DNA of 57,686 nt, from contig JAJYDQ010000018.1 in NCBI GenBank assembly GCA_021777225.1, forward strand, positions 1-57,686. The letters run 5' to 3'. The notes below the pieces were generated by a model. It was not told the DNA's origin. It saw nothing but the letters and a program-made list of their open reading frames with translations, and made no database searches. The translations under genes and the position numbers were made by a program. Position 1 is the stretch's first letter. Every line of letters starts with the position of its first letter. Origin of the DNA: Deltaproteobacteria bacterium. Its GTDB lineage: Bacteria; Desulfobacterota; Desulfomonilia; Desulfomonilales; Desulfomonilaceae. Shown piece by piece: positions 6,606 through 47,225 of this stretch.

Positions 6606-6629
6606 GGGGGTTCTGATGAGAAGGTGTAT

Positions 6630-7947: not shown

Positions 7948-7984
7948 ATATGTTCTCCTTTGTGTTGAGATGATGATGTTGGCG

Positions 7985-8120: not shown

Positions 8121-8137
8121 GGGATCGGCATGTGTCC

Positions 8138-9175: not shown

Positions 9176-9260
9176 GGTTGTTCTGTTTCCTGTATAAAGA
9201 GCGAGGATTGTCATTTCGAACCCCTACTGGTTTGAGATGACACGTCAGCGGTGTTGTTGA

Positions 9261-10010: not shown

Positions 10011-10054
10011 AGTGTCCTCCAATGTTGTTTTTTGTGATTTCGAACGTATTGAAA

Positions 10055-10177
10055 CCCATAGCGTTGCTATGGGCTATTTTGTGTGACCCCTCCGGGGTCA
10101 GGGGTTATTAGTGATAAGTTGAATCCTCAATAGCCCTGTAAGGGCGGCGTCAAAATAGCCCACGGCATGGCCGTGGG
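10055..10177. repeat. Composite palindromic repeat (REPIN-like), copy 5
   Basis: Hairpins A-B-C-D in standard order with a private linker, between the scaffold-like and portal genes. A family-2 half element (10190-10223) lies directly beside it. Confidence 0.8.
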
Positions 10178-10263
10178 TATAAGGCCTGGTTAGATTTCTC
10201 GTCGCAATGCTCCTCGAAATGACAATGGGAGCAATTCGTCGAGATGACATGTAATTAGCATCA

Positions 10264-28499: not shown

Positions 28500-29032
28500 T
28501 GGCAAAGAAAACGCGAGACACAGCCCAGGATGATGCAATCGGATCCAACGTAGGCGGTATACTTGGCGGCCTCTCCGACCTTGTCCAGAAACTTGCAGAC
28601 CTCGCTGAGAAGGGCAAGGAACTGAAAGCCTCCGGGGAATTCCCGAATCTCCAGGGAAGTAAAGAAATGAAGGCTGTCTATGGTTTCAATGTTAAGTTTG
28701 GACTGGACAAGAAGGGATCAGACCAGATCAAGGTTGAGCCGTTTGGAAATGTGGCCAAGGATAGAGATTCCGGACGGACTGTGGTTCATGAAGTACGAGA
28801 GCCTCTTGTAGATGTTTTTGAAGAGGATGATCACATACTTGTTATAGCTGAAACCCCGGGTATTGGCCCTAAAGATGTGAAGATTGATCTAAAGGATGAC
28901 GTGTTGACGATCTCCGCTTCCAAAGGGGACAAGAAATACCATAAGGAAATCTTGCTGCCTAGGGCTTGTGACAAAAACAAGATGACCATCTCGTGCAATA
29001 ATGGAATGCTGGAAATTAAATTCCTCAGCTAG
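28496..29032 (+). CDS. gvpH: Hsp20-family protein, GvpH-like
   Basis: A 178-residue protein. The C-terminal half is a small heat-shock (alpha-crystallin) domain: PLVDVFEEDDHILVIAETPGI, DVKIDLKDDVLTISA, then GMLEIKFLS. The N-terminal half contains a Gly/Leu segment (GGILGGLSDLVQKLADLAEKGKELKASG) seen in GvpH-type proteins of gas vesicle clusters. Such proteins are thought to keep the hydrophobic GvpA soluble. Its start overlaps the regulator stop, so the two are coupled. The symbol is by analogy. Confidence 0.75.
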   Translation: MMAKKTRDTAQDDAIGSNVGGILGGLSDLVQKLADLAEKGKELKASGEFPNLQGSKEMKAVYGFNVKFGLDKKGSDQIKVEPFGNVAKDRDSGRTVVHEVREPLVDVFEEDDHILVIAETPGIGPKDVKIDLKDDVLTISASKGDKKYHKEILLPRACDKNKMTISCNNGMLEIKFLS

Positions 29033-29046
29033 AGCTGGAGCTTGAA

Positions 29047-31170: not shown

Positions 31171-31398
31171 TAAACTGAATCATATGGTTTTATACCTTTT
31201 CGCTTAACTAAAAACGACACAGGATCGGGGTTTCCTGAACGAAGATTCGATGACTTCGCGTCGCTAGAAGTGAAGGAGACCCCGGTCCCATGAGCTGCGT
31301 GTAGATTCACTAGTTGAAACGCGAATCGGTACAAGAAACGCAATAGGCAGGTTTTGGCTGAATAGCCGAACCTGTCTATTCCTGATTTCTCCCTGAAA
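31171..31398 (+). promoter_or_regulatory. Intergenic leader with two long hairpins upstream of gvpF/L
   Basis: Two sizeable inverted repeats are present. Bases 31222-31235 (GGATCGGGGTTTCC) pair with 31275-31288 (GGAGACCCCGGTCC) with two mismatches around a roughly 40-base loop. Bases 31342-31380 form a 17-base imperfect stem (AATAGGCAGG.../...CCTGTCTATT) with a GAAT loop. The second could be a terminator for the CDC48 transcript or an attenuator; the T run after it is poor. No -24/-12 element was found here. Confidence 0.45.
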
Positions 31399-32217
31399 AT
31401 GGTAATCCTAATGAATCTGGCGCTATATGTGTTTGGTTTTGTTCCGAAAGGGAACTTGCCTGGAGATCTCGAAATTCATGGACTAGAACCTGATCACAAA
31501 GTGATTCAGGAGGAATTCTCAGACATCAACGCTATTGTGTCACATGTGCCGTTGTCTGAATTTGTCGGCGAAGAAGCTGAACTTCGTTTGCAGGACATAG
31601 AATGGGTAGCTCCCCGCGCCGTAAATCATCAAAGAGCTATTGAAAAGATATCTGAATTGAGCCCAATCCTGCCTGCTCAGTTTGGCGTGCTCTTTTCTAG
31701 TCGGGACAATCTCGAAAAATTCGTCTGCGACAATCAATTGGAAATCTTGGAATTCTTATCGATGGCATCGGATAAGAATGAATTGGGCGTCAAAGTTTAT
31801 TGGGAAAGTCTCCGGGCAAAAAGGAGACTTATGGAAACACAATTTGCCGGACGGTTGGCGCAACTAACGACCCTCAGTAGTGGAGCGCGCTATTTCAAGG
31901 AAAAACAACTGCACTCGGAAATTGAGAAAAAAAGCACAGAGGCACTTAGAAACCTCATGGTTAAGATCTCCACCATCCTGTCAAATATTTCTCATAGCTC
32001 GAGGAAACGTAAAGTCGTCATAGATGATTCGTCTGAGGAAGGTCGCCAGATAGTCGCGAACTGGGCATTCCTGGTTGAAAAGGCTCGATCTGACGAATTT
32101 CTGTCAATGGTAAACGATTTAAATTCCAATTTTTCAGAAGATGGAATTTCTTTGAGAATTTCTGGACCATGGCCCCCATATTCGTTTGTTCCCGGTTTGA
32201 TATGGGAGTATAATTGA
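31399..32217 (+). CDS. gvpF: Gas vesicle protein GvpF/L, copy 1
   Basis: A 272-residue GvpF/L-family protein. Signs are YVFGFVPKG at the start, LSPILPAQFGVLFSS in the middle, a helical region with charged heptads, and SGPWPPYSFV near the end. Family members bind GvpA and are needed early in vesicle nucleation. A second ATG four codons in (MNLALYVFG) is equally likely as start; no strong ribosome site is seen for either. The stop overlaps the start of the next gvpF/L gene. Confidence 0.85.
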   Translation: MVILMNLALYVFGFVPKGNLPGDLEIHGLEPDHKVIQEEFSDINAIVSHVPLSEFVGEEAELRLQDIEWVAPRAVNHQRAIEKISELSPILPAQFGVLFSSRDNLEKFVCDNQLEILEFLSMASDKNELGVKVYWESLRAKRRLMETQFAGRLAQLTTLSSGARYFKEKQLHSEIEKKSTEALRNLMVKISTILSNISHSSRKRKVVIDDSSEEGRQIVANWAFLVEKARSDEFLSMVNDLNSNFSEDGISLRISGPWPPYSFVPGLIWEYN

Positions 32218-32942
32218 TGAAGCAGCTTCTTTACTGCGTTATGGACCCGAAAAAGTTTCAGGAAGATGAATCAATTGTCGGCGTTGGCTCCCAGAGGATC
32301 ATTTTCTTGAATGGCTCGGACCTATGCGCCGCGGTTTCTAACTTTGACAACTCAGAGACATCTTTCGATGTGACTTCCATGATAACCTATCACAATGTAA
32401 TAGAAACCCTGTTCGAACGACTGGCAATAATCCCTTTCAGATTTAGAACTCTTTTGAATAACAAAGAAGAAGTCTTGGCTATGCTTGAAACAAAAAATCA
32501 TGATTATAAGCAGTTACTTTTAAAACTGGATGGAGTCATAGAAATAGGAATAAGGCTGGTAAGCGCTAAACCCGCAAAAGACAATACTCCGCAAAAGAAT
32601 TGTTTATTTAAACGACCATTTAAAGATTCAAATCCAGGGACATCATATTTGGCGAATAGAAAGGCATTTTACTCCACGGCCTCATGGATTGAAGACCAAA
32701 AAAAAGAATTTTCCGAATTATGTGTTAATCAATTTAAAGGACTCTTTGTAGACCTGAAAAGTGAAGCCGCCAGATTGCCGGAAATCCAGAATCGTAGAGA
32801 TCTAATGATGATTTCGATCTATTTTCTCGTCAAGAAGGACCTGCTTCAAAGATTCAGATATAAATTTCAGGAACTCAGGGGCGTGACGCCCGGCAAAATG
32901 CTACTTAGTGGTCCGTGGCCACCCTATAATTTCGTCGTTTGA
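32217..32942 (+). CDS. gvpL: Gas vesicle protein GvpF/L, copy 2
   Basis: A 241-residue GvpF/L protein starting MKQLLYCVMD at the ATG that overlaps the previous stop (TGATG). IIPFRFRTLLNNKEEVLAML fits the family core, and TPGKMLLSGPWPPYNFVV at the C-terminus is the clearest family mark. It is shorter and more diverged than copy 1. Multiple GvpF/L paralogues per cluster are usual. Confidence 0.85.
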   Translation: MKQLLYCVMDPKKFQEDESIVGVGSQRIIFLNGSDLCAAVSNFDNSETSFDVTSMITYHNVIETLFERLAIIPFRFRTLLNNKEEVLAMLETKNHDYKQLLLKLDGVIEIGIRLVSAKPAKDNTPQKNCLFKRPFKDSNPGTSYLANRKAFYSTASWIEDQKKEFSELCVNQFKGLFVDLKSEAARLPEIQNRRDLMMISIYFLVKKDLLQRFRYKFQELRGVTPGKMLLSGPWPPYNFVV

Positions 32943-33006
32943 ACCAACAACCGTATTTTAAATTCTCAGTCTACTTCAACCAGCATTGGGAAAAGAGGTG
33001 TGGAAG

Positions 33007-34488
33007 ATGGAACCTGAGGTGACGGGAGACACGCGACGGGAGAGTTTTAGCAGGCATGCGAAGCTTTTTGAGATGCTACTGGAAGCTATTCCTTCATCAG
33101 TCCTGTTGATAGATAGTCAAATGAGAATTGTCGCTGCAAACAGGAATTTTTTGGAAAAGAACCGCAAATTGCGTGAACATGCAATTGGCGCCAGACTACA
33201 AGACCTCCTGCCGGAACCCCTCATTGAATACATGGACATTACTGCCCGAGTTAGGCAGGTATTCGATCACAAAATGACTACTCGTGGTGGCCGAATGACT
33301 TACAGGGCTCCTGGCGTGCCGCTACGAGTATATTACTACAGCATTCTGCCTTTTTTATGGCAGGAGCAAGTTGAAAACGTAATGCTGTTAATGGACGATG
33401 TGACTGAACAGATAAGATTGGGTGAGGAGGTTGTTAAAACCCAGAGGCATTTGGCAGGTATAGTTGAAAGCGCATGGGACATAATTTTATCGACTGATTC
33501 GGATGGTGTCGTGCTGACATGGAACACCGCAGCCGAGAGGTTAACAGGGTTTCGGTCTCATGAAATATGCGGGGCGTCATTTTTTGATCTTTTCCAACCG
33601 GAACTTCAACTGGAAATACGCAGGATCCTGAAAAAAGTGGCTGGGCAGGGGGAATCTCAGGTTGGTGAGTGGGATCTGAATACCAAAAACAATCAATGTT
33701 TGCCGATTGGTTGGATCTTTTCAGGTATGAAAGATGAGAACAACAAGACGGTCGGGATTGTAGCGATAGGGCGTGATTTACGGGAACGAAAAGAATTGGA
33801 AATGGAGTTGCTGAAGTCTCAAAAACTGGCCGCGTTAGGAGTTATGGCAGGTGGAATAGCCCACGAAATTAGAAATCCTCTGGCCGTGAGTTATTCTTCA
33901 GCGCAGTTTCTGCTTGAAGATTCTATTGACCCAGAATTTAGTAACGTTTGTGTTCATAAGATCCTGTCTGGGATCGAGAAGGCGTCAACGATCATCCAAG
34001 ACCTCCTTAAATTTGCCAGGCCTTCTTCATCCAGCGACATGGAGCAGTTAGACGTTGTGTCGGTTCTCAATGATGCTATAAAGCTTGTTGTCAATCAAGC
34101 CAAGATACAAAAAGTCCAGGTCTCGGTTAAAAATCGCGCCCGTGAAGCCTGGGTATTAGGGCACGCCAACCTCTTGCAGCAGGTTTTTGTGAATCTGTTT
34201 TTAAACGGTTTGAACGCAATGACCGAGGGAGGAGAACTCAGCATTCATGTCGAAAAAACCGAAACTGAAGCTTGCGTAAAAATATCGGATACCGGAGTAG
34301 GTATCGCAAAACAGGACCTGGAAAGGATCTTTGACCCGTTTTATACCTCCGCTTTAGTGGGCAAAGGCACGGGCTTGGGGCTTTCCATTTGCCATTCAAT
34401 CATAGTGAAGCAGCACCTTGGTAAGATAGAAGTCGAGAGTGAAGAAGGGGCTGGGTCAACATTTTGTGTTAGCCTACCCATATTCTGA
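33007..34488 (+). CDS. PAS-domain sensor histidine kinase within the gas vesicle cluster
   Basis: A 493-residue soluble kinase starting MEPEVTGDTR after GAGGTG. Two PAS domains (about 25-130 and 140-265) are followed by a HisKA domain with H286 (GGIAHEIRNPLAVS) and an HATPase domain (NLFLNGLNAM, DTGVGI, GTGLGLSI). There is no membrane segment, so it senses an internal signal such as redox state, or a ligand. The receiver protein directly behind it and the NtrC-type activator upstream are candidate partners. Confidence 0.88.
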   Translation: MEPEVTGDTRRESFSRHAKLFEMLLEAIPSSVLLIDSQMRIVAANRNFLEKNRKLREHAIGARLQDLLPEPLIEYMDITARVRQVFDHKMTTRGGRMTYRAPGVPLRVYYYSILPFLWQEQVENVMLLMDDVTEQIRLGEEVVKTQRHLAGIVESAWDIILSTDSDGVVLTWNTAAERLTGFRSHEICGASFFDLFQPELQLEIRRILKKVAGQGESQVGEWDLNTKNNQCLPIGWIFSGMKDENNKTVGIVAIGRDLRERKELEMELLKSQKLAALGVMAGGIAHEIRNPLAVSYSSAQFLLEDSIDPEFSNVCVHKILSGIEKASTIIQDLLKFARPSSSSDMEQLDVVSVLNDAIKLVVNQAKIQKVQVSVKNRAREAWVLGHANLLQQVFVNLFLNGLNAMTEGGELSIHVEKTETEACVKISDTGVGIAKQDLERIFDPFYTSALVGKGTGLGLSICHSIIVKQHLGKIEVESEEGAGSTFCVSLPIF

Positions 34489-34505
34489 GATAGAGTTTGA
34501 CATAA

Positions 34506-34901
34506 ATGGCGCCGTTCCCCACGATTTTAGTAATAGACGACGAACCTGACATGCTATGGGTCCTGGAGAGTGTCCTCAGGAGTCAAAACTTCGATGTTAT
34601 CAAGGCTTCAACAGGCGCAGAAGCTTTAGCTCTAGCTCCTAAGACCGAATTAGAAATAGCTTTTCTCGACGCGAAGTTACCGGATATGGAAGGCCTAGAA
34701 ATAGCTCGCCTGATCAAATTATCACATCCTTCGACACAACTAATCATGATTTCAGGCTATTACTATGAACATGATGATAAGATCCAGGACGCTCTTAGAA
34801 CAGGCCTCATTGTCCACTTTATTCCCAAACCCTTTTCAAACTCGACCATTATAGAAGCATTAAAGACTGCGCGTTCAGCGCTGGGTCGCCAAAACGAATA
34901 A
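34506..34901 (+). CDS. Single-domain response regulator
   Basis: A 131-residue receiver-only protein: acidic pair D11/D12, phospho-acceptor D55 (AFLDAKLPDMEG), and K108 in FIPKPF. No output domain. It lies 17 bases after the kinase stop and should be its direct partner. It could act as a phosphate shuttle to another protein or a sink. It is the last gene before the gvpA promoter region. Confidence 0.88.
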   Translation: MAPFPTILVIDDEPDMLWVLESVLRSQNFDVIKASTGAEALALAPKTELEIAFLDAKLPDMEGLEIARLIKLSHPSTQLIMISGYYYEHDDKIQDALRTGLIVHFIPKPFSNSTIIEALKTARSALGRQNE

Positions 34902-35265
34902 GTTCAATTCTGGTCTTATTCATAATAATATGGAAACGATTCCATAGAGTTGCCTCCACATATCTCCCCTTGACTCCATAGATACTTATGGTGAGTTGGC
35001 TGCTTTATTTCAGAGGTATTTCGCTGCTGGAACTGCAATTCCACATTCGTGATCATATGGGGGATGCACGGTCTTGATCTTCCGCTTCTTCGTCTCGAAG
35101 GTGAGTAGGAATCTATTCTATCCCCTGAATACGCCTCCTGTTCACGGTTCGTCCGCATGATACCAAAACTTTTTTCATTGTGGCACAGATCTGGCATTAA
35201 CTAAGGTCGGCATGCCAAATCATCAAAAGCCGTTTAGGCAAAACTAAAACACATGGAGGGAGAAA
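34902..35265 (+). promoter_or_regulatory. gvpA upstream region
   Basis: A 364-base gene-free stretch. It contains the -24/-12 promoter described separately and about 270 bases upstream of it, where activator binding sites would be expected. An open frame on the minus strand (34916-35197) has no recognisable domain and is not called. No activator site was identified by eye. Confidence 0.6.
35181..35196 (+). promoter_or_regulatory. Sigma-54 (-24/-12) promoter of gvpA
   Basis: TGGCAC-AGATC-TGGCA: the GG at 35182-35183 and the GC at 35194-35195 are separated by exactly 10 bases, as required. The -24 half TGGCAC is perfect; the -12 half has one change from TTGCA. The expected transcription start is near 35208, giving a leader of about 58 bases to the gvpA ATG. 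An NtrC-type activator with GAFTGA lies 7 kb upstream in the same gene block. Confidence 0.75.
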
Positions 35266-35484
35266 ATGGCCAAGATAGCTAAATCGACCGATTCTTCCAG
35301 CCTCGCAGAGGTTGTGGACAGGATCCTGGACAAAGGTATTGTGATCGACGCTTGGGTGAAGGTCTCATTGGTTGGTATCGAGCTGCTCTCAGTCGAGGCG
35401 AGGGTGGTCATCGCATCGGTCGAGACCTATCTGAAATACGCTGAAGCTATTGGTCTCACCGCCAGCGCCGCCGCTCCTGCGTAA
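35266..35484 (+). CDS. gvpA: Major gas vesicle protein GvpA
   Basis: A 72-residue GvpA. The family core is clear: [31 protein letters not shown] followed by [20 protein letters not shown]. GvpA forms the ribs of the hydrophobic vesicle shell. A strong ribosome site (GGAGGGAGAAA) precedes the ATG. It has its own sigma-54-type promoter and is followed by a large hairpin, both of which suit very high expression of this one gene. Confidence 0.95.
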
Positions 35485-35507
35485 TTAGGCATTCTGCCTC
35501 TGGATTC

Positions 35508-35554
35508 CCAATAGCTTTGGGGGAACTGACATTACATACCTCCCAAAGCTTTGG
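35508..35554 (+). terminator. Hairpin between gvpA and the GvpC-like gene
   Basis: CCAATAGCTTTGGGGG pairs with CTCCCAAAGCTTTGG (about 13 base pairs with a bulge) around a 15-base loop. There is no T run directly after it, so it is more likely a partial terminator or mRNA-stabilising stem than a full stop. In cyanobacterial gvpA-gvpC operons a hairpin at the same place limits read-through. Confidence 0.65.
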
Positions 35555-35641
35555 GTCCAGCGAAACCCGACACAACTGATCAACTTCTACGATTTTACGG
35601 GGCTGGCCAATCTGTCGGGTTAACTAGACAAAGGAGGAGTA

Positions 35642-36427
35642 ATGGGCGCTCTGACTGAAGACATTGCCAGACTGTGCGGCGAGATTGAGGCCTTGCGAGA
35701 CTCTCGCAAGGTTTTCGAATCTCAACTCGACAAGGAAACCAAGGAAATGAAAGCCGAGGTTTCCGTGATGCGAGGCGGTTTCCGACAGGACCATAAGACG
35801 ATGGCAGGTCGGACCAAGGCCGATCGAGTGAAGTTCGTATCAGCTCTGGATGCTGAAGTTAGTGGTCTCCTGAATGCCTTTGACAAAAGCCATGCTGAAA
35901 TGGCGACCCAGACCAAAAAGGCCAACGCTGCGTTCGTTTCAGATGTAGCCAACCACGTGTCCGGTCTCCTGACGGGATATCACAAAAACCGGAAAGAGAT
36001 GGGGGGCACCACGAAACGAGAGAACGCTATTTTTGTAGCTGACGTGATCAGGTTCGTCAATGCCAAGAACAAAGAGACCAAGGTAATGATGGACGGGTTC
36101 AAGGTCGAGCACGTAAAAATGGCAAAAGCAACGAAGGCGGACAGGAAAAAATTCGTAAACCAACTGGAAAACAATGTCAACGCGATGAGAAAAGTTAACG
36201 TTGACGATTTAGTAGGCGCACGGGCCGCATGGGCGACTTTGTCTCCCCAGGGCCGAAAAGTGAAGTTGGCGGCTGAACAACGAGCCAGGGCTGAACAGGA
36301 AAGAAAGACTCGGATGGAAGCTGAACAGCGAGCTAAGGCTTTGGAGGATTCAAGGGCAAGAGCGGAGGCCGAAAAATCAAGACAGCAACATGAATCGTCG
36401 AGTGAAAAGAAAAAAGACAAAAAATGA
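35642..36427 (+). CDS. GvpC-like gas vesicle protein with 33-residue repeats
   Basis: A 261-residue helical protein. Four repeats begin at F47, F80, Y113 and F153; the first two units are exactly 33 residues and the third is 33 plus one heptad. The shared pattern is F/Y-x3-H/N-x2-M-A/G-x2-T-K-x3-x3-FV. The C-terminal 65 residues are a charged Ala/Glu/Arg/Lys coiled coil. Cyanobacterial GvpC, which sits on the outside of the shell and stiffens it, also has 33-residue helical repeats and follows gvpA. Residue-level similarity to it is weak, so the name is by architecture. AAAGGAGGAGTA precedes the ATG. Confidence 0.65.
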   Translation: MGALTEDIARLCGEIEALRDSRKVFESQLDKETKEMKAEVSVMRGGFRQDHKTMAGRTKADRVKFVSALDAEVSGLLNAFDKSHAEMATQTKKANAAFVSDVANHVSGLLTGYHKNRKEMGGTTKRENAIFVADVIRFVNAKNKETKVMMDGFKVEHVKMAKATKADRKKFVNQLENNVNAMRKVNVDDLVGARAAWATLSPQGRKVKLAAEQRARAEQERKTRMEAEQRAKALEDSRARAEAEKSRQQHESSSEKKKDKK

Positions 36428-36507
36428 AACCAAGGCCCCAGCCGAGGCCAACTGACAATGAAATTCAATAAGATTCAGAGGCCGAAGCTGGGCCAACAAG
36501 AATTGTC

Positions 36508-36828
36508 ATGAGTGAAATCACTTGTTCATTCTGTAGAGGTACCGGGAAAGACCCTTTTGGCGTTCTATCGTGGCTATCCACATGCTGCGTTTGTAGCGGA
36601 AGAAGGGTCGTTGATGTTCCTAGTCCATACAAAGTCTGTCCTCATTGCGCCGGAACCGGCGCTGTCAAGACACTGACCTGCACTACCTGTATGGGCAAAG
36701 GTTATATTCCACTACCATCAAGACCGATTGTTAGATGTCCGGAATGCCATGGTTCGGGAGACTCGTCATCTATCCCATCTCTTGCTTGCATCAAATGCCA
36801 TGGCAAAGGATTTATTACAGAAAGCTAA
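36508..36828 (+). CDS. DnaJ-type CxxCxGxG zinc-binding protein
   Basis: A 106-residue protein made almost wholly of zinc-finger motifs: CSFCRGTG, CCVCSGRR, CPHCAGTG, CTTCMGKG, CPECHGSG and CIKCHGKG. This is the cysteine-rich substrate-binding domain of DnaJ without the J domain. It therefore cannot call DnaK by itself but could bind unfolded GvpA. It sits between the GvpC-like gene and gvpN. No clear ribosome site precedes it. Confidence 0.75.
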   Translation: MSEITCSFCRGTGKDPFGVLSWLSTCCVCSGRRVVDVPSPYKVCPHCAGTGAVKTLTCTTCMGKGYIPLPSRPIVRCPECHGSGDSSSIPSLACIKCHGKGFITES

Positions 36829-36926
36829 TCCGAATTCAGATGGGCCCATCTATTTTTACAGTAAATTTCCGTTAAGTTTGGATAGCTTTGTAGAAAAATT
36901 TAGGTGGCAAAAAGGGAGCAAAAGTC

Positions 36927-37931
36927 ATGGGCGGCATGGAAAATATAGAAGCTCTTCAATCTGAAATCATCACTAACGATGATGACAATGTTGTCCCCGA
37001 AGCTAGTGAAGAATTTGTTTATACGTCACATGTGCGATCATTAACAGAAAGGGCCATGGCCTATCTGAATGTGGGCTATTCAGTCCATTTCGCAGGGGCC
37101 GCCGGCACTGGCAAGACGACGCTGGCGTTTCATCTCGCTGCCGAACTCGAGAGGCCTGTGATTTTGATTCACGGGGATGATGAATTCGGCAGTTCGGACC
37201 TGGTTGGCCGCGACTCTGGTTATCGTAAATCAAAATTAATAGATAACTATATACATTCTGTGGTGCGAACCGAAGAAGAAATGCGGAGCCTGTGGGTTGA
37301 CAACAGGTTGACAACCGCTTGCAGGGATGGATTTACGCTGATTTATGATGAGTTCACGCGGTCTAGACCTGAAGCTAACAATGTGCTGTTGAGCATTCTT
37401 GAGGAAAAAATCTTAAATCTCCCCAGCATGCGCCGTACAGGAGAAGGTTATCTAGAAGTTCACCCGGCTTTCAGGGCCATTTTTACATCCAACCCCGAAG
37501 AATACGCAGGTGTGCACAAAACTCAGGACGCTCTCCTGGATCGACTGATCACAATAAATGTGGATCATTATGATCGCGAAACTGAAATTCAGATAACTAT
37601 CTCGAAATCGGGCATTTCCCGGTCAGAAGCTGAAACGATTGTTGACATTGTTAGAGAGCTTCGGATGGTAGGTGTAAACAACCATAGGCCGACAATAAGA
37701 GCCTGCATCGCTATTGGAAAAGTCATATCGCACCTGGGCGCTCATGCATATGAGAATGACCCCATTTTCCTCTGGGTTTGCCAGGATGTCCTAAACACCG
37801 AAACAGCTAAGGTCACCCGTTCCGGGCAATCTCTTATGCCGGAAAAAATCAAGGAAGTTATCAGGAAGGTCTGTAAACAAAACAAGTCAGGAAGAAAAGC
37901 TGCGATTAGACCGGTTATGGAAAGCGTATAG
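36927..37931 (+). CDS. gvpN: Gas vesicle protein GvpN (AAA+ ATPase)
   Basis: A 334-residue MoxR-type AAA+ protein with Walker A GAAGTGKTTL near residue 58 and a Walker B-like LIYDEFTRSRPEANNVLLSILEE, then FTSNPEEYAGVH. GvpN supports growth of vesicles to full size. The start follows AGGGAGC. The C-terminal 40 residues are basic. Confidence 0.9.
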   Translation: MGGMENIEALQSEIITNDDDNVVPEASEEFVYTSHVRSLTERAMAYLNVGYSVHFAGAAGTGKTTLAFHLAAELERPVILIHGDDEFGSSDLVGRDSGYRKSKLIDNYIHSVVRTEEEMRSLWVDNRLTTACRDGFTLIYDEFTRSRPEANNVLLSILEEKILNLPSMRRTGEGYLEVHPAFRAIFTSNPEEYAGVHKTQDALLDRLITINVDHYDRETEIQITISKSGISRSEAETIVDIVRELRMVGVNNHRPTIRACIAIGKVISHLGAHAYENDPIFLWVCQDVLNTETAKVTRSGQSLMPEKIKEVIRKVCKQNKSGRKAAIRPVMESV

Positions 37932-37947
37932 GATTGGAGTGAGAAAA

Positions 37948-38325
37948 ATGGGCCTACGTCGATCAGGAGATATTCGAGGTGTTAGAGACATTCGTACCTA
38001 CTCTGGGCGAGTTGACGCTGGGAGTGTTCCTTACCTTGCTTACATGAAAATAAGCTGCCTGGAGATGGAGAAGGCTCGTCGCGAGAAGGAAAGGAACAGC
38101 GCAATTGCTAGAATGAGAAACATAGATTCCAGGATCCATGATATTGACGCTGAGAGAAACATAATACTCAAGAAGCTTGAAAAACATGAGGACGCCAAGC
38201 AGGCGTTAATTTCCAGGAATGATGGAGCCCGTCAACGAAACGGCAGCGTTCCCAACAGGTCGTCTTTTAGATCGGCGAACACTGGGGGGGCCAAAGATAA
38301 GGACGGTTTTAAAATAAGGTACTGA
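37948..38325 (+). CDS. Small coiled-coil protein of the gas vesicle cluster
   Basis: A 125-residue basic protein starting MGLRRSGDIR after GGAGTGAGAAA. An N-terminal SGDIRGVRDIRTYSG segment precedes a central coiled coil of about 65 residues (MEKARREKERNSAIARMRNIDSR), and the tail is Ser/Asn/Arg-rich. Family not recognised. It is placed tightly between gvpN and further gvp genes, so a structural or assembly role in vesicles is likely but unproven. Confidence 0.6.
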   Translation: MGLRRSGDIRGVRDIRTYSGRVDAGSVPYLAYMKISCLEMEKARREKERNSAIARMRNIDSRIHDIDAERNIILKKLEKHEDAKQALISRNDGARQRNGSVPNRSSFRSANTGGAKDKDGFKIRY

Positions 38326-38363
38326 TTGCGTTTACAGTTGTGCAAAATGGGGGTTATTAAATC

Positions 38364-38576
38364 ATGATCAAAATTAAGACAGTGAATGGAATCAAAACGA
38401 GTTCCGAAATAAAGAGCTACCGATCTTTACGACACGCCGTAGGGGCGCCAGTTAGCGCCCTCGATTGGGGACGGATGAAGATGGGACAGGCAAAGCGTCT
38501 GGCCAAAAAAGACTGGAAAATCTGGTTCCAGGCTGGAACTAAATGCGGGATGACCAAGCGTGTCCTGGGAAGCTAA
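38364..38576 (+). CDS. Small basic protein of the gas vesicle cluster
   Basis: A 70-residue Lys-rich protein starting MIKIKTVNGI. No domain is recognised. GGGGG lies 12 bases before the ATG. It is kept in line with flanking gvp genes on the same strand with short gaps, which is the main support for calling it. Confidence 0.5.
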   Translation: MIKIKTVNGIKTSSEIKSYRSLRHAVGAPVSALDWGRMKMGQAKRLAKKDWKIWFQAGTKCGMTKRVLGS

Positions 38577-38604
38577 ATTCCAAACAAATGGAGGTAACGC
38601 TAAA

Positions 38605-38823
38605 ATGAAGATCAACTGTGTATCCTGTGGCCACAGTATTTTCCTTGATGACGCTTATGATGACTTTGAAGGACCGGTGAAGTGTTATGTCTGTGGTGGG
38701 CTGTTACAAATAAAAACCGAAGAAGGTAAGCTCAAAAGTATTCGTCTACCTTCCATGGGAATGCCCCACCAACAGGCGCCTCAACATAATGTAGCAAAGG
38801 CGCCAAAGGAAAAGCAGGCTTAG
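38605..38823 (+). CDS. Small zinc-ribbon protein of the gas vesicle cluster
   Basis: A 72-residue protein starting MKINCVSCGH after GGAGGTAACGC. Two CxxC pairs (CVSCG and CYVCGG), 23 residues apart, form a zinc ribbon; the C-terminal 30 residues are Pro/Gln/Lys-rich and probably disordered. Unknown function. With the CxxCxGxG protein it is the second zinc protein of the cluster. Confidence 0.6.
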   Translation: MKINCVSCGHSIFLDDAYDDFEGPVKCYVCGGLLQIKTEEGKLKSIRLPSMGMPHQQAPQHNVAKAPKEKQA

Positions 38824-38856
38824 TCATTAATAAAATCGCGGGACAGGAGCCTCGGA

Positions 38857-39621
38857 ATGATAAAAAAAGTCACAAATATCCCCGCCAGAAACGGCCGTTA
38901 CATGTACGCCATAATACCAGGCGCACAAGAACGGTCCTTTGGCTCAATAGGTATTAACGGGGCCAAAGTTTACACAATATGCGTCGGTGAAGCCGCTGCG
39001 GTTGTTAGTGACGCTCCTAACGGAAAAATACGTCCCGAACGAAGAAACTTCGCGGCTCACCAGGCTGTGTTAAAGACGCTTGTGGAAGAAGGTGACCTTC
39101 TGCCGATGTCCTTCGGAAACATTTCCAGTAATGGATCGGCGGTTAAGGATTTCCTTGCGAAAAACAACTCTTCCATATCGAAGGCGCTGAAACGAATTTC
39201 GGGAAAAATCGAAATGGGATTGAGGGTGAACCTGGATGTTCCCAATATCTTTGAATATCTGGTTACAACGTATGACGAACTACGTATAGCGCGGGACGAA
39301 CTGATAAGACCCAACAGAGAACCCAGTCAGGACGATAAGATCGAACTGGGGCGTCTTTTCCAGAATATTCTCGATTCTGCCAGAGACCAACACTTTGAAA
39401 CGGTTTCAAAAAGCCTTGCGGTATGCTGCTCGGAAATCAAAAAAAACAAATGCAGGGACGAGCGCGAAGTCATGAACCTGGCTTGCCTTATTAACAGAGG
39501 GGCCGTAGAGAAATTTGAAGACGGTGTTTTTAAAGCCGCTAGCCTTTTCGACGACAATTTTGCGTTTGATTACAACGGGCCTTGGGCCCCACACAATTTT
39601 GTAGATCTGGAAATCAAGTAA
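38857..39621 (+). CDS. gvpL: Gas vesicle protein GvpF/L, copy 3
   Basis: A 254-residue GvpF/L protein. RYMYAIIPGAQ at the start, LLPMSFGNISSN in the middle and FDYNGPWAPHNFVDLEI at the end are the family marks. AGGAGCCTCGGA precedes the ATG. It is closer to typical GvpF/L proteins than copy 2. Confidence 0.88.
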   Translation: MIKKVTNIPARNGRYMYAIIPGAQERSFGSIGINGAKVYTICVGEAAAVVSDAPNGKIRPERRNFAAHQAVLKTLVEEGDLLPMSFGNISSNGSAVKDFLAKNNSSISKALKRISGKIEMGLRVNLDVPNIFEYLVTTYDELRIARDELIRPNREPSQDDKIELGRLFQNILDSARDQHFETVSKSLAVCCSEIKKNKCRDEREVMNLACLINRGAVEKFEDGVFKAASLFDDNFAFDYNGPWAPHNFVDLEIK

Positions 39622-39654
39622 GAGCCAATCTAGTCTGCTTTGACGGAGACGAAA

Positions 39655-39951
39655 ATGTTCCTCGTTGACGACCTTCTGATGGCTCCAGTAAGTGGTGTAC
39701 TGTGGATTTTTCAGGAAATCTATGAAGCCGCTGAGCAGGAACGCTTAAATGAGGCGGAAAATATTACTCTGGAATTACAAAAACTATATAGGAGCCTGGA
39801 ATCAGGTTCTATTTCAGAAGAGGAATTTGACACGAGGGAAGCTGAACTTTTGGACCGGCTTGATAGCATCGAAGGGGATGATTCCGACCTGGATGATGAG
39901 CAGGAATACGATGAAGAACAGACTATTGAAACGACACATGAAAGCGAATAA
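39655..39951 (+). CDS. gvpG: Gas vesicle protein GvpG
   Basis: A 98-residue GvpG. MFLVDDLLMAPVSGVLWIF at the start and GSISEEEFDTREAELLDRLD later are diagnostic. The C-terminus is very acidic. The ATG at 39655 follows GGAGACGAAA; a TTG five codons upstream is also open. GvpG takes part in early assembly with GvpF/L. Confidence 0.9.
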   Translation: MFLVDDLLMAPVSGVLWIFQEIYEAAEQERLNEAENITLELQKLYRSLESGSISEEEFDTREAELLDRLDSIEGDDSDLDDEQEYDEEQTIETTHESE

Positions 39952-39995
39952 CTCACTGACATGTCATCCAGGCGCCTTTACGAGAGATATTCATC

Positions 39996-40265
39996 ATGCA
40001 CGATGATTTAATCAATGATGACCTTCACCACGTTACCCTCTGTGAGACCCTTGACCGTATTCTCAACAAGGGAGCGGTGATCATAGGAGAGCTGACAATA
40101 TCTGTAGCCAATGTGGATCTCATATATCTAGGATTACAGATTGTTCTCAGCTCTATCGAAACGAGAAATAATTCGAACTCGGCAATGTTGGAGCAATCGT
40201 ATCTGCAGGATGTTCCGGAGACTAAACATGCTTGTCAACACATCGGCGACCAATTTTCGACCTGA
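39996..40265 (+). CDS. GvpA-family protein (GvpJ/S-like)
   Basis: An 89-residue minor GvpA-family protein. LCETLDRILNKGAVIIGELTISVANVDLIYLGLQIVLSSIE is the conserved core, and the C-terminal extension is polar. Such minor paralogues help to nucleate or shape vesicle ends. It could be GvpS or GvpM instead of GvpJ. Confidence 0.85.
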   Translation: MHDDLINDDLHHVTLCETLDRILNKGAVIIGELTISVANVDLIYLGLQIVLSSIETRNNSNSAMLEQSYLQDVPETKHACQHIGDQFST

Positions 40266-40302
40266 TTTGACTATCCTAAAACTCTAAATAGGGATTTTAA
40301 TT

Positions 40303-40734
40303 ATGGCTGCGTCATTCTGTGTAAACGTCAAAGCTGATGAACCAGGCGAAACCTTTAAACTGGCGCCTCAGGTGGATGTTTGCCAAGCGGCCGTCGAATC
40401 GGACTCTATTGGAGACTTTGCCAATATCATGAGCATTGCCTCAGAACTAAAGGCCAAATCCGAAGACAGCGCCGGAAAAATCAATCTCGAGCAGGACAAT
40501 GTCAAGAACGGTCTAGGTCAACTTGTATTAACGCTGGTAAGACTTTTGCACGAGCTGCTTGAACGTCAGGCCATAAGAAGAATTGAAGCCGGATCATTGA
40601 GTGATATGGAGATTGAAAACATAGGCGTAACTCTCATGAGACAAGCTGAAGAGATCGAAAGACTTCGCAAGGAGTTTGGTCTTGAGGAAAAGGACCTGAA
40701 TCTCGACCTCGGTCCGCTCGGCAAATTGCTGTAA
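40303..40734 (+). CDS. gvpK: Gas vesicle protein GvpK
   Basis: A 143-residue GvpK. The conserved block is INLEQDNVKNGLGQLVLTL, LLERQAIRRIEAGSLSD, and LGLEEKDLNLDLGPLGKLL-like sequence at the end. An N-terminal extension of about 60 residues is less conserved. GvpK is required for vesicle formation. It lies directly before the last gvpJ. Confidence 0.92.
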   Translation: MAASFCVNVKADEPGETFKLAPQVDVCQAAVESDSIGDFANIMSIASELKAKSEDSAGKINLEQDNVKNGLGQLVLTLVRLLHELLERQAIRRIEAGSLSDMEIENIGVTLMRQAEEIERLRKEFGLEEKDLNLDLGPLGKLL

Positions 40735-40747
40735 GGAGGACCTCGAA

Positions 40748-41014
40748 ATGTCAATACAACAACACACACGTCATTCGGTGGAAAGCACAAACCTGGCGGA
40801 CCTTCTTGAGCGGGTGCTTGATAAGGGTATTGTAATAGCGGGTGATATAAAAATAAAACTTGTGGACGTGGAACTCTTGACAATTCAAATCAGGCTGGTG
40901 ATCTGCTCTGTCGACAAAGCCAAGGAAATTGGCATCGATTGGTGGGCAAACAATCCGGCTTTTTCAAAATCACAGCCTGTTGCGGCGCCAATTGGAGAAT
41001 CAGCAAGCGCTTAA
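40748..41014 (+). CDS. gvpJ: GvpA-family protein GvpJ
   Basis: An 88-residue GvpA-family protein with STNLADLLERVLDKGIVIAGDIKIKLVDVELLTIQIRLVI as core. AAGGAGGACC gives a strong ribosome site. The position after gvpK matches GvpJ. It is the last gene of the cluster. Confidence 0.88.
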   Translation: MSIQQHTRHSVESTNLADLLERVLDKGIVIAGDIKIKLVDVELLTIQIRLVICSVDKAKEIGIDWWANNPAFSKSQPVAAPIGESASA

Positions 41015-41233: not shown

Positions 41234-43867
41234 GTGGAAACTTACCGTGAGACACGACGAAGATCATTACTTGCGATTATTCTCATTTTCGCCATTCTGA
41301 CATTAGGTGTATCGGCCGCCGGGTATGTCTTCTACAATAATCAAGCGAAACACTATCAAATCGGAATAGAAAATCAGCTCTCCTCTATTACAAATGTGAA
41401 AGCAAGAGTGATCGAGCAATGGTGGCAGGAACGTCTGGGGGATGCCCTGATTTTTTACAGGAATGTCACGTTCTCTGAGGCTGTACAGCGCTATTTCAAA
41501 AAACCGGGTGACCTTGAGTCGATTAAAGAGGTTAGGGTATGGCTGGAAACAGTTCAAACGCAACATCGATATAAAGATATCCTGTTAATAGATAACAAAG
41601 GAGTTGATCATTTATCCGTGTCCGTAGACCTACCTCAGATCTCTGATTTCCTGAAAAGACGAGCGCTCCAGGTCATGAAAACCGGTGAAGTCGAATCAAC
41701 GGATTTTTACCGAAACATTAATGACAATTCCATATATCTGGCCTGTCTAGTCCCAATTGTCGATCCTGATGACAGCAGGCGTTTTATCGCTACGCTAGTT
41801 TTTTTGATTGATCCCCAGCAATTCATTTTTCCCTTCATAAAATACTGGCCTACTGAAAGCAAGTCCGCTGAGACAATAATTGTGCGCCGGGATAGTCATG
41901 AAGTCGTTTATCTGAACGATCTGAAATTCCGGAAGAATGCGCCTCTTGAGCGACGGATCCCCATAACAAGCCTTGAATCCCCGGCTGTTAAGGCGGTTCT
42001 TGGCCAGGAGGGGATTGTGCAGGGCATGGGCTATAATGGAGAAAGGGTTATCGCAGATGTTTGTCAAATAACGGGAACGCCCTGGTATCTGGAGTCTTGC
42101 ATAGACAAATCAGAAGTCTACGCCCCGTTGAGACAACAATTTTGGTTGATGATCGTCATCGTAGGTAGCCTGATTGGGGGGGCTGGAGCTTTTGTGGGGT
42201 GGTTGTGGAACAGGCAGAACGCGAGCTTTTATCGGCAAAGGTACGAAGCGTCTAATACCCTGAAGGAGATCACCCTGCTTAATGAATCTCGACTGCAAAG
42301 TCTGTATGAGATTTCCCAGTATAAGTTTGAAGACGAACAGGACCTGTTGAGTTTTACGCTGGAACAGGCAATCAAACTCACTGGTAGTAAAATTGGGCAT
42401 TTGAGACAGTACGACGAAACGACACAGGTTTTTAACTTGATTACGTACTCGAAAGAAGTTGCGAAAGAATGCAAGGTTACTGATCATAAGCCTGTCCGTA
42501 AACTCGACGAAACCGGATTATGGGCTGAAGCCGTACGGCAGCGGAAGTCCGTTGTGGTGAATGATTTCAAGGCCCCAAATTCTTTTAAAAAAGGGCAGCC
42601 GGATGGACACGTTGAACTTGTAAGGTATGTGGCTACTCCGATTTTTTATGCAGACAAAATAGTAGCTGTAGTCGGTGTGGCAAACAAGGAATCAGATTAT
42701 AACGACACGGATATTATGCAGCTTTCGCTGCTTATGGAGGCGGCCTGGCGAATAATAGAAAGTAATGCGGCCACGGAGCAGCAGAAAAAACTTATAACTG
42801 CAGTAGAACAGTCCGCAGACTGTATTGTTATAACTGACGTCTCCGGAACAATAATATATGCGAATCCAGCCGTTGAGAAAATTACAGGGTACAACATTCA
42901 GGAGCTGATTGGCCAAAACCCGAAAATATTGAAGAGCGGTGTCCACGACCAATCCTTTTACAAGGAAATCTGGGACACTATTACGGCAGGTGAGACCTGG
43001 TCCGGGAGATTTGTCAACAGGAGGAAGGACGGAACCAGATATTTTGAAGAAGCGACGATCTCTCCTGTGCTAAACGCGGTCGGCAAGATAACGAACTTTG
43101 TGGCGGTCAAACATGACGCAACGAAACGGCGTGAGCTTCAAGCGCAACTGTTCCAGGCTCAGAAGATGGAGGCCATAGGGACCCTCGCAGGGGGTTTTGC
43201 CCACGACTTCAACAATTTGCTCCAGGTTATCATGGGATATCTAGAATTGACCCTCTCCACCAAAGACTTGCCGGATAAGTTAAAGACAAACCTGGAGGAA
43301 ACTCAGCGAGCGGCTAAGAGTGGGGCTGACCTGGTTAAAAGAATGCTTGTGTTTGGCAGAAAATCACCTGTCAAACTCGAACCAGTCAATATCAATAACA
43401 TCGTGGAACAAGTTCATCCTCTTCTAGACAGAAGCATGCCCCAGCTCATAGAAATGGAACTTTTGATGGACGATGACCTGTGGGCGATAAACGGGGATCT
43501 CGGGCAAATGGAACAGATTCTGATGAACCTGGCGATAAACGCCCGTGACGCTATGCCGAATGGGGGCAAACTTACTATAGAAACACAAAACATTGTATTG
43601 GAAGAGGAATTCTGCATCGCCCATCTGGGGTTAAAACGAGGCCGTTACGTGCTGCTTTCAGTGACCGACACAGGAACTGGAATGGACGAGGAGACTGCCA
43701 AGCACATTTTTGAGCCATTCTTTACCACAAAAGAAGTGGGCAAAGGAACAGGATTAGGGCTCTCTGTCGTTTATGGTATCGTGGAACAACACGGCGGGAA
43801 AATTATTTGTGATAGCCAACTATCTGTGGGAACTACATTCAATGTCTATTTTCCGGCAATTGAATAA
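41234..43867 (+). CDS. Membrane sensor histidine kinase (Cache-GAF-PAS)
   Basis: An 877-residue kinase; the start is GTG. TM1 is at about 11-33, a periplasmic Cache-like sensor spans roughly 35-295, TM2 at about 298-325 (FWLMIVIVGSLIGGAGAF). A GAF domain (about 355-510) and a PAS domain (about 520-640) precede HisKA with H657 (GGFAHDFNNLLQ) and an HATPase domain (NLAINARDAMPNGG, DTGTGMD, GTGLGLS). It has no receiver domain. Its catalytic core is a close paralogue of the next kinase. Confidence 0.88.
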   Translation: METYRETRRRSLLAIILIFAILTLGVSAAGYVFYNNQAKHYQIGIENQLSSITNVKARVIEQWWQERLGDALIFYRNVTFSEAVQRYFKKPGDLESIKEVRVWLETVQTQHRYKDILLIDNKGVDHLSVSVDLPQISDFLKRRALQVMKTGEVESTDFYRNINDNSIYLACLVPIVDPDDSRRFIATLVFLIDPQQFIFPFIKYWPTESKSAETIIVRRDSHEVVYLNDLKFRKNAPLERRIPITSLESPAVKAVLGQEGIVQGMGYNGERVIADVCQITGTPWYLESCIDKSEVYAPLRQQFWLMIVIVGSLIGGAGAFVGWLWNRQNASFYRQRYEASNTLKEITLLNESRLQSLYEISQYKFEDEQDLLSFTLEQAIKLTGSKIGHLRQYDETTQVFNLITYSKEVAKECKVTDHKPVRKLDETGLWAEAVRQRKSVVVNDFKAPNSFKKGQPDGHVELVRYVATPIFYADKIVAVVGVANKESDYNDTDIMQLSLLMEAAWRIIESNAATEQQKKLITAVEQSADCIVITDVSGTIIYANPAVEKITGYNIQELIGQNPKILKSGVHDQSFYKEIWDTITAGETWSGRFVNRRKDGTRYFEEATISPVLNAVGKITNFVAVKHDATKRRELQAQLFQAQKMEAIGTLAGGFAHDFNNLLQVIMGYLELTLSTKDLPDKLKTNLEETQRAAKSGADLVKRMLVFGRKSPVKLEPVNINNIVEQVHPLLDRSMPQLIEMELLMDDDLWAINGDLGQMEQILMNLAINARDAMPNGGKLTIETQNIVLEEEFCIAHLGLKRGRYVLLSVTDTGTGMDEETAKHIFEPFFTTKEVGKGTGLGLSVVYGIVEQHGGKIICDSQLSVGTTFNVYFPAIE

Positions 43868-44237
43868 GTAAAGCCTACCCATTGTTATACCTGATAAAAT
43901 TTCGGATTTCTAAATGAATATTACGAATGAACAAAACACGATGCCTCAACCGATCAAAGTCGCTGGTGATGTTGAGACGAGGAGTAAGGTCCCAAATTCC
44001 ACCCTTTATATTTCTTGTCTTGTATTTTGGTCATTCTATCCAAAAGCGAAAAATTCAACATCTGTAAAGTCTTTTTTATATTTTGTTGTTCCATATTCCG
44101 GTAACATTTGATAGAATAACATATTACGTCTTTTGTCCACTTGAACATGGCACGAGGGAACACTTTGTGCAAGACAAGACAAGACAAGACAAGACAAGAC
44201 AAGACAAGACCCAGAACAGATTGCCAATGAGTTTGCC
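43868..44237 (+). other. Gap with a pentanucleotide repeat before the second kinase
   Basis: No firm gene in 370 bases; a 65-residue frame (43914-44111) has no recognisable domain. The AAGAC array (44171-44210) and a possible alternative ATG for the kinase (44147) lie in the last 100 bases. Confidence 0.5.
44171..44210 (+). repeat. Tandem pentanucleotide array (AAGAC)x8
   Basis: Eight perfect AAGAC copies. The array begins 64 bases before the GTG taken as the kinase start and ends 27 bases before it. No stop codon arises from the repeat in any plus-strand frame. An ATG at 44147 reads through the repeat but is one base out of frame with the kinase at eight copies; nine or six copies would fuse the frames. 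Confidence 0.9.
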
Positions 44238-45923
44238 GTGATTTGGTCGCGCGTTGCAACCGATATACACGGAAAATCGTTAACTTCTCCCGATATATCC
44301 ACACTATCCGCCGAAGAACTCCAACAGTTCGTGCACGAATTCCACATCCAAAACATCGCGCTGGAAATCCGAAACCAGGAACTTCAAGAAAGTCAAAGTT
44401 GTTATCGTATGTTATGCCAAAATATGTTGGAGGGGTTCGCCTATTGTAAGATCCTTTATGATGAGGACTGTCGGCCATGTGACTGGATATATCTTGATGT
44501 GAATAGAGCGTTCGAGCGATTGAGTGGGCTGAATAATTTGGTAGGAGTAAAAGTTACCGAGGCAATTCCTGGTATCAAAGAGGCGCACCCTGAGTTGTTT
44601 GAGATTTACGGAAGAGTCGCATTGACAGGCCAATCCGAGAAATTCGAAATTGATTTTAAGCCATTGGGAATCTTTCTTGATATTTCGGTATTTAGTCCCG
44701 CAAAAGACCATTTCATAGCTGTTTTCGAAAATGTCACAGACCGGAGGCGAGCACAGAAGGAAAATGAAGCGCTTCAAGCGCAATTGATTCAAGCGCAAAA
44801 AATGGAGGCCATAGGGACCCTTGCTGGTGGAATTTACCATGATTTCAACAACCTGCTTCAGGTAATCGTCGGATACTCCGAGATTTTGCTCCAACGTAAA
44901 CAACTCAATGAGAGCGACTATGCTGATCTCGAACAAATATATGAGGCTGGAAAACGAGGAGCGGAGCTTATCCAGGGTTTAATGACATTCAGCAGAAAGG
45001 ACGATATACAAACTAAGCCCATTAACCTGGAAGTTCAAATCAGACAGTTCAAGAATATATTGTCCAGAACAATTCATAAAATGATCAGGATCGAACTCAT
45101 GTTTGACCCGGCCCTGGCTTTAATAAAAGCGGACCCTGGCCAAATGGAACAGGTCCTTATGAACCTTGCGGTTAACGCCAGGGACGCAATGAGTGATAAG
45201 GGCAAAATTACAATTGGGGCCAAAAACACAATTTTGGACGAGACATATTGCAATACTCATGTTGGGGTTAAGCCAGGACCCTATGTTCTCCTGACTTTTT
45301 CAGATACCGGGACTGGTATGGACAAGGAAACTCTTAGCCACATTTTTGAGCCATTCTTTACTACCAAGGCAGAAGGAAAGGGGACGGGTTTAGGTCTTGC
45401 GACAGTATATGGCATTGTTAAGCGGCACAATGGTTCAATTGACTGTGAAAGCGAACCAGGACATGGAACCACATTCAAGATATATCTTCCTGCAATCCCG
45501 CCTGACGAAAAAGTTTCGATCGATAAAACGCCAGTGTCGCCGAAAAGTGGAATGGAAACCATACTGTTTGTTGATGATGAAGAGCCAGTCAGAATTGTAA
45601 GCTCAAGGATGCTTAAATCAGCGGGGTACGGTGTGCTTACCGCTTGTAATGGCAAGCAAGCCGTAGATTTGTTTAAACGAGAGGGTGGTAACATATCATT
45701 AGTTATTCTGGATCTACTGATGCCGGTGATGGACGGACAGGAATGCCTTGAGGAAATTCTAAGAATCGACCCGAAAGCCAAGGTGATAATAGCCACTGGC
45801 GTAACTACCAACAATAAACAAATTAGCCTGGCGATTGACACTGGAGCTAGGGTGGCCGTGCACAAACCGTATGACATGACCGAAATGCTAAAGATGATCC
45901 GGGACATCCTTGGTAAGACTTGA
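44238..45923 (+). CDS. Hybrid histidine kinase with C-terminal receiver
   Basis: A 561-residue soluble protein: an N-terminal helix (LSAEELQQFVHEFHIQN), a PAS-like domain (about 55-170), HisKA with H201, HATPase (NLAVNARDAMSDKG, DTGTGMD, GTGLGLA) and a receiver with D492 (VILDLLMPVMDG). The residue before the His is Tyr (GGIYHDFNN) where Ala is usual. The GTG start has no clear ribosome site, and the typical family N-terminus would extend upstream into the AAGAC array, so translation may begin at a different codon depending on repeat number. Confidence 0.82.
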   Translation: MIWSRVATDIHGKSLTSPDISTLSAEELQQFVHEFHIQNIALEIRNQELQESQSCYRMLCQNMLEGFAYCKILYDEDCRPCDWIYLDVNRAFERLSGLNNLVGVKVTEAIPGIKEAHPELFEIYGRVALTGQSEKFEIDFKPLGIFLDISVFSPAKDHFIAVFENVTDRRRAQKENEALQAQLIQAQKMEAIGTLAGGIYHDFNNLLQVIVGYSEILLQRKQLNESDYADLEQIYEAGKRGAELIQGLMTFSRKDDIQTKPINLEVQIRQFKNILSRTIHKMIRIELMFDPALALIKADPGQMEQVLMNLAVNARDAMSDKGKITIGAKNTILDETYCNTHVGVKPGPYVLLTFSDTGTGMDKETLSHIFEPFFTTKAEGKGTGLGLATVYGIVKRHNGSIDCESEPGHGTTFKIYLPAIPPDEKVSIDKTPVSPKSGMETILFVDDEEPVRIVSSRMLKSAGYGVLTACNGKQAVDLFKREGGNISLVILDLLMPVMDGQECLEEILRIDPKAKVIIATGVTTNNKQISLAIDTGARVAVHKPYDMTEMLKMIRDILGKT

Positions 45924-46483: not shown

Positions 46484-46903
46484 TCAACAACTCACCGTAG
46501 CGTTGAACGTGTCACTGGATTGATTGGGCCGGGATTTTTCGAGTCGGTAATCCTGCGACAACACCTCAAGCGGTATATGCAACATTTCGCTTAACATGCG
46601 AATGTCAGCTAGTGTCAAGCCTCTCCTGCAATTAAGAATGTCGGAGATCCTCCCACTACTTTTTTTGAGATGGTCCATTAAATGTTTACGAGACACCCCC
46701 AAATTTTGCATTTGAATCTTTATGGCCTCGACGGGATGAGGCATCCCAAGGGGAAAGTGGCGCTCTTCATATGCGTCAACTAATGTAATAAGGACCTCGA
46801 GTTCATCATCTTCTTTGGAGCCAGGTTCAGCGTGAAAAATCTGTTCAATCCTCTCACAGGCCATCTCATAATCTTTTGGGGTGTGTATTGGTCTAATGTC
46901 CAT
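46484..46903 (-). CDS. higA: HigA-family antitoxin
   Basis: A 139-residue protein. The N-terminal half is helical and acidic; VEAIKIQMQNLGVSRKHLMDHL starts a helix-turn-helix and SGRISDILNCRRGLTLADIRMLSEMLHIPLEVL completes it, matching HigA-type antitoxins. It would bind and inhibit the toxin and repress the operon. It follows the toxin gene by 16 bases, the toxin-first order typical of HigBA. Confidence 0.85.
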   Translation of the reverse strand: MDIRPIHTPKDYEMACERIEQIFHAEPGSKEDDELEVLITLVDAYEERHFPLGMPHPVEAIKIQMQNLGVSRKHLMDHLKKSSGRISDILNCRRGLTLADIRMLSEMLHIPLEVLSQDYRLEKSRPNQSSDTFNATVSC

Positions 46904-46919
46904 CCTAGGTTACTCCTGG

Positions 46920-47225
46920 CTAATAGAGTTTTACTGTACCAGCATCAACTTTTTCGTAATCAGAGTGTGTTCCTAAAAAACGGATGAAAACGGCTCGTTT
47001 ACCATAATTAATTTCTGCAATTAAACGGTAGTCGTTCCCTTTGATGTTAAATACCGCCCTATTATTTGTCACGAAGTCAACGCTGACACCGAAAGTCATC
47101 TTTACATCCGCAGTGTTTCTAAGTTCTGTTTTCTTAATGAGTTGGTACCAATGCTCCAACGAACTGCGGGCCTGAGGATGTTGCTCGGCAAATTCCAGAA
47201 GGACTAGACGTTTGATAACTCTCAT
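46920..47225 (-). CDS. higB: HigB-family mRNA interferase toxin
   Basis: A 101-residue RelE-fold toxin. LEHWYQLIKKTELRNTADVKMTFG and VFNIKGNDYRLIAEINYGKRAVFIRFLGTHSDYEKVDA are diagnostic of the HigB_toxin family, which cuts mRNA on ribosomes. It is intact and paired with higA. It appears to be the one intact toxin-antitoxin pair of this island. Confidence 0.9.
   Translation of the reverse strand: MRVIKRLVLLEFAEQHPQARSSLEHWYQLIKKTELRNTADVKMTFGVSVDFVTNNRAVFNIKGNDYRLIAEINYGKRAVFIRFLGTHSDYEKVDAGTVKLY

Follow-up and report, generated by a model that had tools for sequence, protein, structure and literature searches.

The kinase gene, its leader and its neighbours

The window, by which we mean the whole stretch of DNA that was analysed (57,686 nucleotides), comes from an uncultured bacterium related to Desulfomonile, which lives in lakes and sediments. 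On its plus strand it carries a frame that is open from 44145 to 45923, as the initial annotation had read it, and the encoded protein is a hybrid-type histidine kinase in which HisKA, HATPase_c and receiver domains all score above the Pfam cut-off. Protein homology begins at the codon GAA at 44214. Ahead of this point, at 44170..44210 on the plus strand, lies a pentanucleotide array, (CAAGA)8.2, which takes up the kinase codons from the second onward.

A further sensor kinase (Cache, GAF, PAS, HisKA and HATPase_c; 41234..43867, plus strand) precedes the gene and is also found upstream of the orthologue in G002, a genome of the same genus. Directly upstream of the two kinases is a gas-vesicle cluster (28496-41014) that encodes three GvpL/GvpF proteins, a GvpH/Hsp20-like protein, a Gas_vesicle shell protein, a CDC48-like AAA ATPase and a possible GvpN-like AAA protein; immediately ahead of the cluster lies a sigma-54 response regulator. 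Between the kinases, a short ORF at 43914-44111 (MNITNEQNTMPQPIKVAGDVETR...) is similar to the 5' end of a kinase of which G003, another genome of the genus, has a complete copy (L035 290-1894) just upstream of the array gene; in the window and in G002 the short ORF is apparently a deletion scar. Just downstream of the array kinase, a HigB-type toxin (Pfam HigB_toxin) and its probable antitoxin lie on the minus strand at 46484-47225, and at the other end of the window (675-12285) there is a run of minus-strand proteins that resemble phage structural genes, as judged by eye only.

The leader runs into the array in the order GAGGGA-ACACT-TTGTG-CAAGAC. Here GAGGGA (44154..44159, plus strand) is the Shine-Dalgarno sequence, placed five bases before a TTG at 44165 and seven before a GTG at 44167; these two starts lie in different frames and overlap in TTGTG (44165..44169, plus strand), which is conserved in relatives. 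Further upstream, TTGATAGAATAA at 44108..44119 on the plus strand is a probable -10 region, judging from its conservation in the orthologues (TTGATATAATAA in G002 and G003) and in the paralogue C40 (TTGATATAATAG), and a consensus promoter scan gave this segment no promoter score. A structured RNA leader was sought at the array and not found, with no Rfam match and a folding z-score of -0.98. The leader and the first 40 codons (43970-44330) have a dS of 0.04-0.08 among the window's own genome (G000), G002 and G003, while the rest of the kinase gene, at 0.18-0.35, is far less conserved; the high conservation of the 5' end would reflect either constraint at the nucleotide level or its recombination.

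The start codon can be read from related loci. The C40 leader is the same as that of the window, and there the GTG reads in frame into an intact 708-aa kinase with the architecture PAS-HisKA-HATPase-receiver; the GTG is likewise the in-frame start of the intact kinases C85 (859 aa) and C31b (1225 aa), and the TTG is that of the G003 orthologue (584 aa). The initial annotation had instead proposed an ATG at 44147 as the switched start. On the window sequence this ATG does enter the repeat and terminate at the TGA at 44228, and the arithmetic by which nine or six units would put it in the kinase frame is correct, but the same position reads ATG GCA TGA in both G002 and G003 and ATC at C40. By these comparisons the predicted conserved start of the kinase is GTG 44167 (or TTG 44165), not ATG 44147.

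The array and the frames that it sets

Tandem Repeats Finder reports the array with a period of 5 and a 100% match, in agreement with the eight perfect AAGAC copies described earlier ahead of the kinase frame. It was also rightly described as free of stops: all three frames read the same five codons, CAA GAC AAG ACA AGA. Because the unit has five bases and gives the same codons whatever the frame, the peptide (QDKTR)n is unchanged across frames and a stop never arises, so that changes in length would be tolerated. Antisense ORFs across the array vary in length between relatives.

Such an array is expected by chance about 1e-17 times per genome on a first-order Markov estimate. A repeat census covered 487 kb of G000, or 12% of the genome, with the window contig and the C40 contig included deliberately; the only arrays above threshold with units of 2-12 bases were that of the window and an identical one at C40:8530-8570, and the unbiased part of the sample, about 395 kb, held no above-threshold array of period 2-12. 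The window array is thus a perfect and chance-improbable short repeat whose length sets the reading frame, which is what is looked for in an SSR contingency locus.

On comparison of N-termini, the array is an expansion of QDKT codons (Gln-Asp-Lys-Thr) that belong to the N-terminus of the kinase itself. The G002 orthologue, with two units, begins VQDKTQEQIANEF and contains the seed motif VQDKTQEQ, which resembles the M.DQDKTKEQLI of other kinases within the genus; kinases of the genus that have no array begin MQDQDKTKEQLIHEL, MSDQDKTKEELIEEL or MQRQDKTKEQLIAEL.

With the ancestral downstream sequence, 2, 5 or 8 units join the kinase to the GTG, 1, 4 or 7 join it to the TTG, and 0, 3 or 6 join it to neither. 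The window departs from this scheme by an apparent one-base deletion at 44214..44215 (plus strand), either a true mutation or an error of the consensus, where the orthologue alignment has CCCAG-AACAG against CCCAGGAAC in G002, G003 and C40; compared with the CCCAGGAACAG of relatives, there is one base fewer directly after the array. As a result of this loss the frame table of the window has moved, to 7 or 10 units for the GTG and 6 or 9 for the TTG, and the present 8 units serve neither start. The description of the locus as being in an off state stands in so far as neither start is in frame at 8 units, but the state does not come from unit number alone, since the missing base also contributes. 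Likewise, 9 and 6 are not the only copy numbers that would switch the gene on, as 7 and 10 would do so through the GTG.

All three frames are seen among related loci. The GTG is on in C40 (8 units) and G002 (2), the TTG is on in G003 (7), and neither start is in frame in the window (8) or in the loci C2a (8), C31 (5) and C51 (11) of G004, a fourth genome of the genus. The initial view of the kinase as a contingency locus is well supported by the 2, 7 and 8 units of the orthologues, by the spread of unit number among paralogues and by the three frames observed, although the start codon it relied on was wrong and its copy numbers were incomplete.

Unit number, family and selection across the genus

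All unit numbers given here come from consensus sequences of different species or of paralogues, with one consensus genome per species. At the window locus the orthologues have 8 (window), 2 (G002) and 7 (G003) units, and their 90-base upstream flanks are 92-99% identical. The C40 orthologues have 8 units (C40) and 2 (G003:C7) with flanks 94% identical, and within G004 the paralogues C31 and C51 have 5 and 11 units (flank 99% identical) and C2a and C116 have 8 and 3 (98%). Among paralogues with near-identical leaders the number ranges from 2 to 11. Between species and between paralogues, unit number differs and flanks are conserved, as expected of contingency loci, and on this sequence comparison array length changes faster than the flanks. 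Copies with 2 units are probably not prone to slippage. Four G004 loci (C2a, C31, C51 and C5; L036, L038, L039 and L131) have CCAGTAACAG or TCAGTAACAG after the array; in each, the GTG frame runs to a TAA, after which comes an in-frame ATG or GTG. The units in this subtype (8, 5, 11 and 2, in that order) fall in one class modulo 3; the shared class of 2, 5, 8 and 11 hints, weakly for four loci, that the frame may be kept rather than switched.

The window locus is one of a family. Four genomes of the genus together have about 14 loci with a cassette made up of a Shine-Dalgarno sequence, TTGTG, the array and a PAS-type histidine kinase, with 2 loci in G000, 1 in G002, 2 in G003 and 10 in G004, where the count takes in short or interrupted arrays. 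The Shine-Dalgarno position holds GAGGGA, GAAGGGA or GGAGG, and at nearly all loci TTGTG stands directly 5' of the array; C6 and C13 of G004 are one locus each in which the start pair differs. By their Pfam domains, the genes behind the arrays are PAS/GAF histidine kinases, mostly with a receiver domain. Within a single genome, several paralogues can carry the same array at the same codon, as in a multi-locus pentamer system of the opa kind.

Arrays of at least 4 units were absent from 38 of 41 genomes (the window's own and 40 relatives), and an anchored 18-base pattern (the start and 3.2 units) matched 16 stretches in 84,980 species genomes, among which no start-anchored array before a kinase was found outside the genus. 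Among the records with the cassette, CAJBEZ is named as a MAG of an uncultured Desulfomonile and JARLHM as one of the Syntrophaceae. The other matches fell in Ghiorsea, Dyella, Gemmobacter, Akkermansiaceae, Mycoplasma, Nitrosopumilaceae and Microbulbifer. The idea of a widespread mobile array was rejected, as matches beyond the genus did not resemble the starts of kinases, and a single viral contig proved to be unrelated. A family-wide pattern that allowed one mismatch was too loose beyond the genus.

The kinase has been kept intact behind its array. Its orthologues are 94% and 89% identical, and dN/dS over the kinase frame is 0.108 (window-G002) and 0.163 (window-G003), which indicates purifying selection; with an intact ORF, these are the values of a gene whose function has been maintained although it is out of frame. 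The window copy has 43 synonymous and 19 nonsynonymous changes of its own, a balance like that of the in-frame G002 copy (24 to 13). The low dN/dS and the window-specific changes together argue that the out-of-frame kinase is not free of constraint, as expected of a switch; the same dN/dS would also be seen if the frameshift were very recent or the consensus wrong. Long intact ORFs lie behind three off arrays, namely those of the window, of C31 (726 codons) and of C2a (at least 1500).

Proposed slippage switching, its alternatives and known systems

We consider it likely that the array acts as a slippage switch, placed in the opening codons of a hybrid histidine kinase, and is a member of a genus-wide family of such switches. 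Ribosomes would bind GAGGGA and initiate at TTG 44165 or GTG 44167, in two frames, and slippage at replication would add or remove five-base units and thereby shift the kinase among three frames. Three states are predicted, with the kinase joined to the GTG, to the TTG or to neither, the last being off or weak, although expression from each start is presumed. Within a population the switching would be reversible and might carry a phenotype. As array length differs between relatives and between sister genes, the kinase family is probably switched on and off at random, and each gene with this 5' cassette could switch independently.

The array might instead be an expansion that switches nothing: a hypervariable growth of the QDKT codons, neutral or mildly harmful, in which frame-breaking lengths mark the way to gene loss in a set of dozens of redundant kinases. 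Many G004 copies are indeed broken further downstream (C2b, near codon 97, C51, C5 and C116), the number of kinase matches (at least 26 in G000 and at least 62 in G004) suggests redundancy, and interrupted, stabilised arrays precede the intact in-frame genes C85 and C31b, of 859 and 1225 codons. We nevertheless judge this unlikely, as the same unit has expanded independently at the same codon at several loci and in several species and nowhere else in the sampled genome, out-of-frame copies retain long intact ORFs and purifying selection, and TTGTG supplies two start frames.

It is less probable still that termination and reinitiation at GTG 44238, or at some other internal start, supply the kinase all the time, with the array in a short leader peptide that tunes expression through its length. 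The 24-codon frame from GTG 44167 (44167..44241, plus strand) ends in a TGA at 44239-44241 that overlaps GTG 44238 (GTGA), and C31 and C51 of G004 have a TAA after the array with an in-frame ATG about 12 bases further. Against this, array and kinase form one continuous reading frame in C40, G002 and G003, protein homology reaches the array, the N-terminal motif matches that of full-length kinases without an array, and GTG 44238 has no strong Shine-Dalgarno sequence, as had been noted from the start. Weak reinitiation there is possible and would give residual kinase expression; this GTG may also give a constitutive short-form kinase, which would be a point against switching.

That the off state is an error of the metagenome consensus (a missing base or the unit number) and the gene simply on fits the one-base gap to every relative and the eight units that are in frame with the GTG once the base is restored, but a 41-bp array is shorter than ordinary reads and several independent assemblies and loci carry arrays of differing length, so that this is the least credible of the alternatives and the wider finding stands despite a possible error in the window.

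Returning to the slippage switch, we suggest more tentatively that its members form an independently switching sensor-kinase family, with an opa-like array and GTG, TTG and off states, so that clone-mates differ at random in what is sensed, and that the pair by the gas-vesicle genes could diversify buoyancy. If confirmed, this would mean that an uncultured environmental genus diversifies its sensing at random, and for each locus the unit numbers that are on can be predicted precisely; on and off unit numbers can be read from existing long-read metagenomes of lakes and sediments.

The array family works like Neisseria opa and is not homologous to it. The opa genes, numerous paralogues dispersed over the genome, carry a pentameric coding repeat, (CTCTT)n, within their first codons (PMC11475388, PMC13183285); they are out of frame more often than expected, and 6.6% of them have additional frameshifts beyond the repeat (PMC13183285). 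In the same way, the pentamer described here lies in the first codons, is readable in any frame, recurs in many scattered paralogues and leaves more copies out of frame than in, some of them frameshifted again after the repeat. Unlike opa, which is a surface adhesin of a host-bound pathogen and has one start, the present genes encode sensor histidine kinases and have two overlapping start frames, their bacterium is free-living and rich in kinases, and their switching in a population is predicted from sequence comparison.

The Haemophilus influenzae genes lic1A and lic2A are lipooligosaccharide genes of a pathogen with tetramer repeats, and their start codons are not known to overlap, unlike the TTGTG seen here. 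According to PMC4019658, which cites Dixon et al. 2007, these tetranucleotide genes have starts in two frames. Both systems thus have starts in two of three frames, so that two are on and one is off.

Two-component signalling genes are also switched through frameshifts in repeats in Campylobacter jejuni (flgS/flgR) and Bordetella (bvgS), there in homopolymer tracts inside single genes of pathogens, whereas the array here is a pentamer and opens the genes of a multi-copy kinase family. The Campylobacter genes are described in PMC3930126, and bvgS by Stibitz 1989 as cited in PMC5084427. The literature that was searched, incomplete in coverage and hence weak evidence, held nothing that joins pentanucleotide phase variation to two-component genes, and nothing on slippage in sulfate reducers or on Desulfomonile. 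Most descriptions of simple-repeat phase variation concern surface genes of pathogens with small genomes and few sense-and-respond systems (PMC11475388). In the free-living bacterium described here, which has dozens of histidine kinases, the apparent targets are by comparison these very sense-and-respond systems, at about 14 loci.
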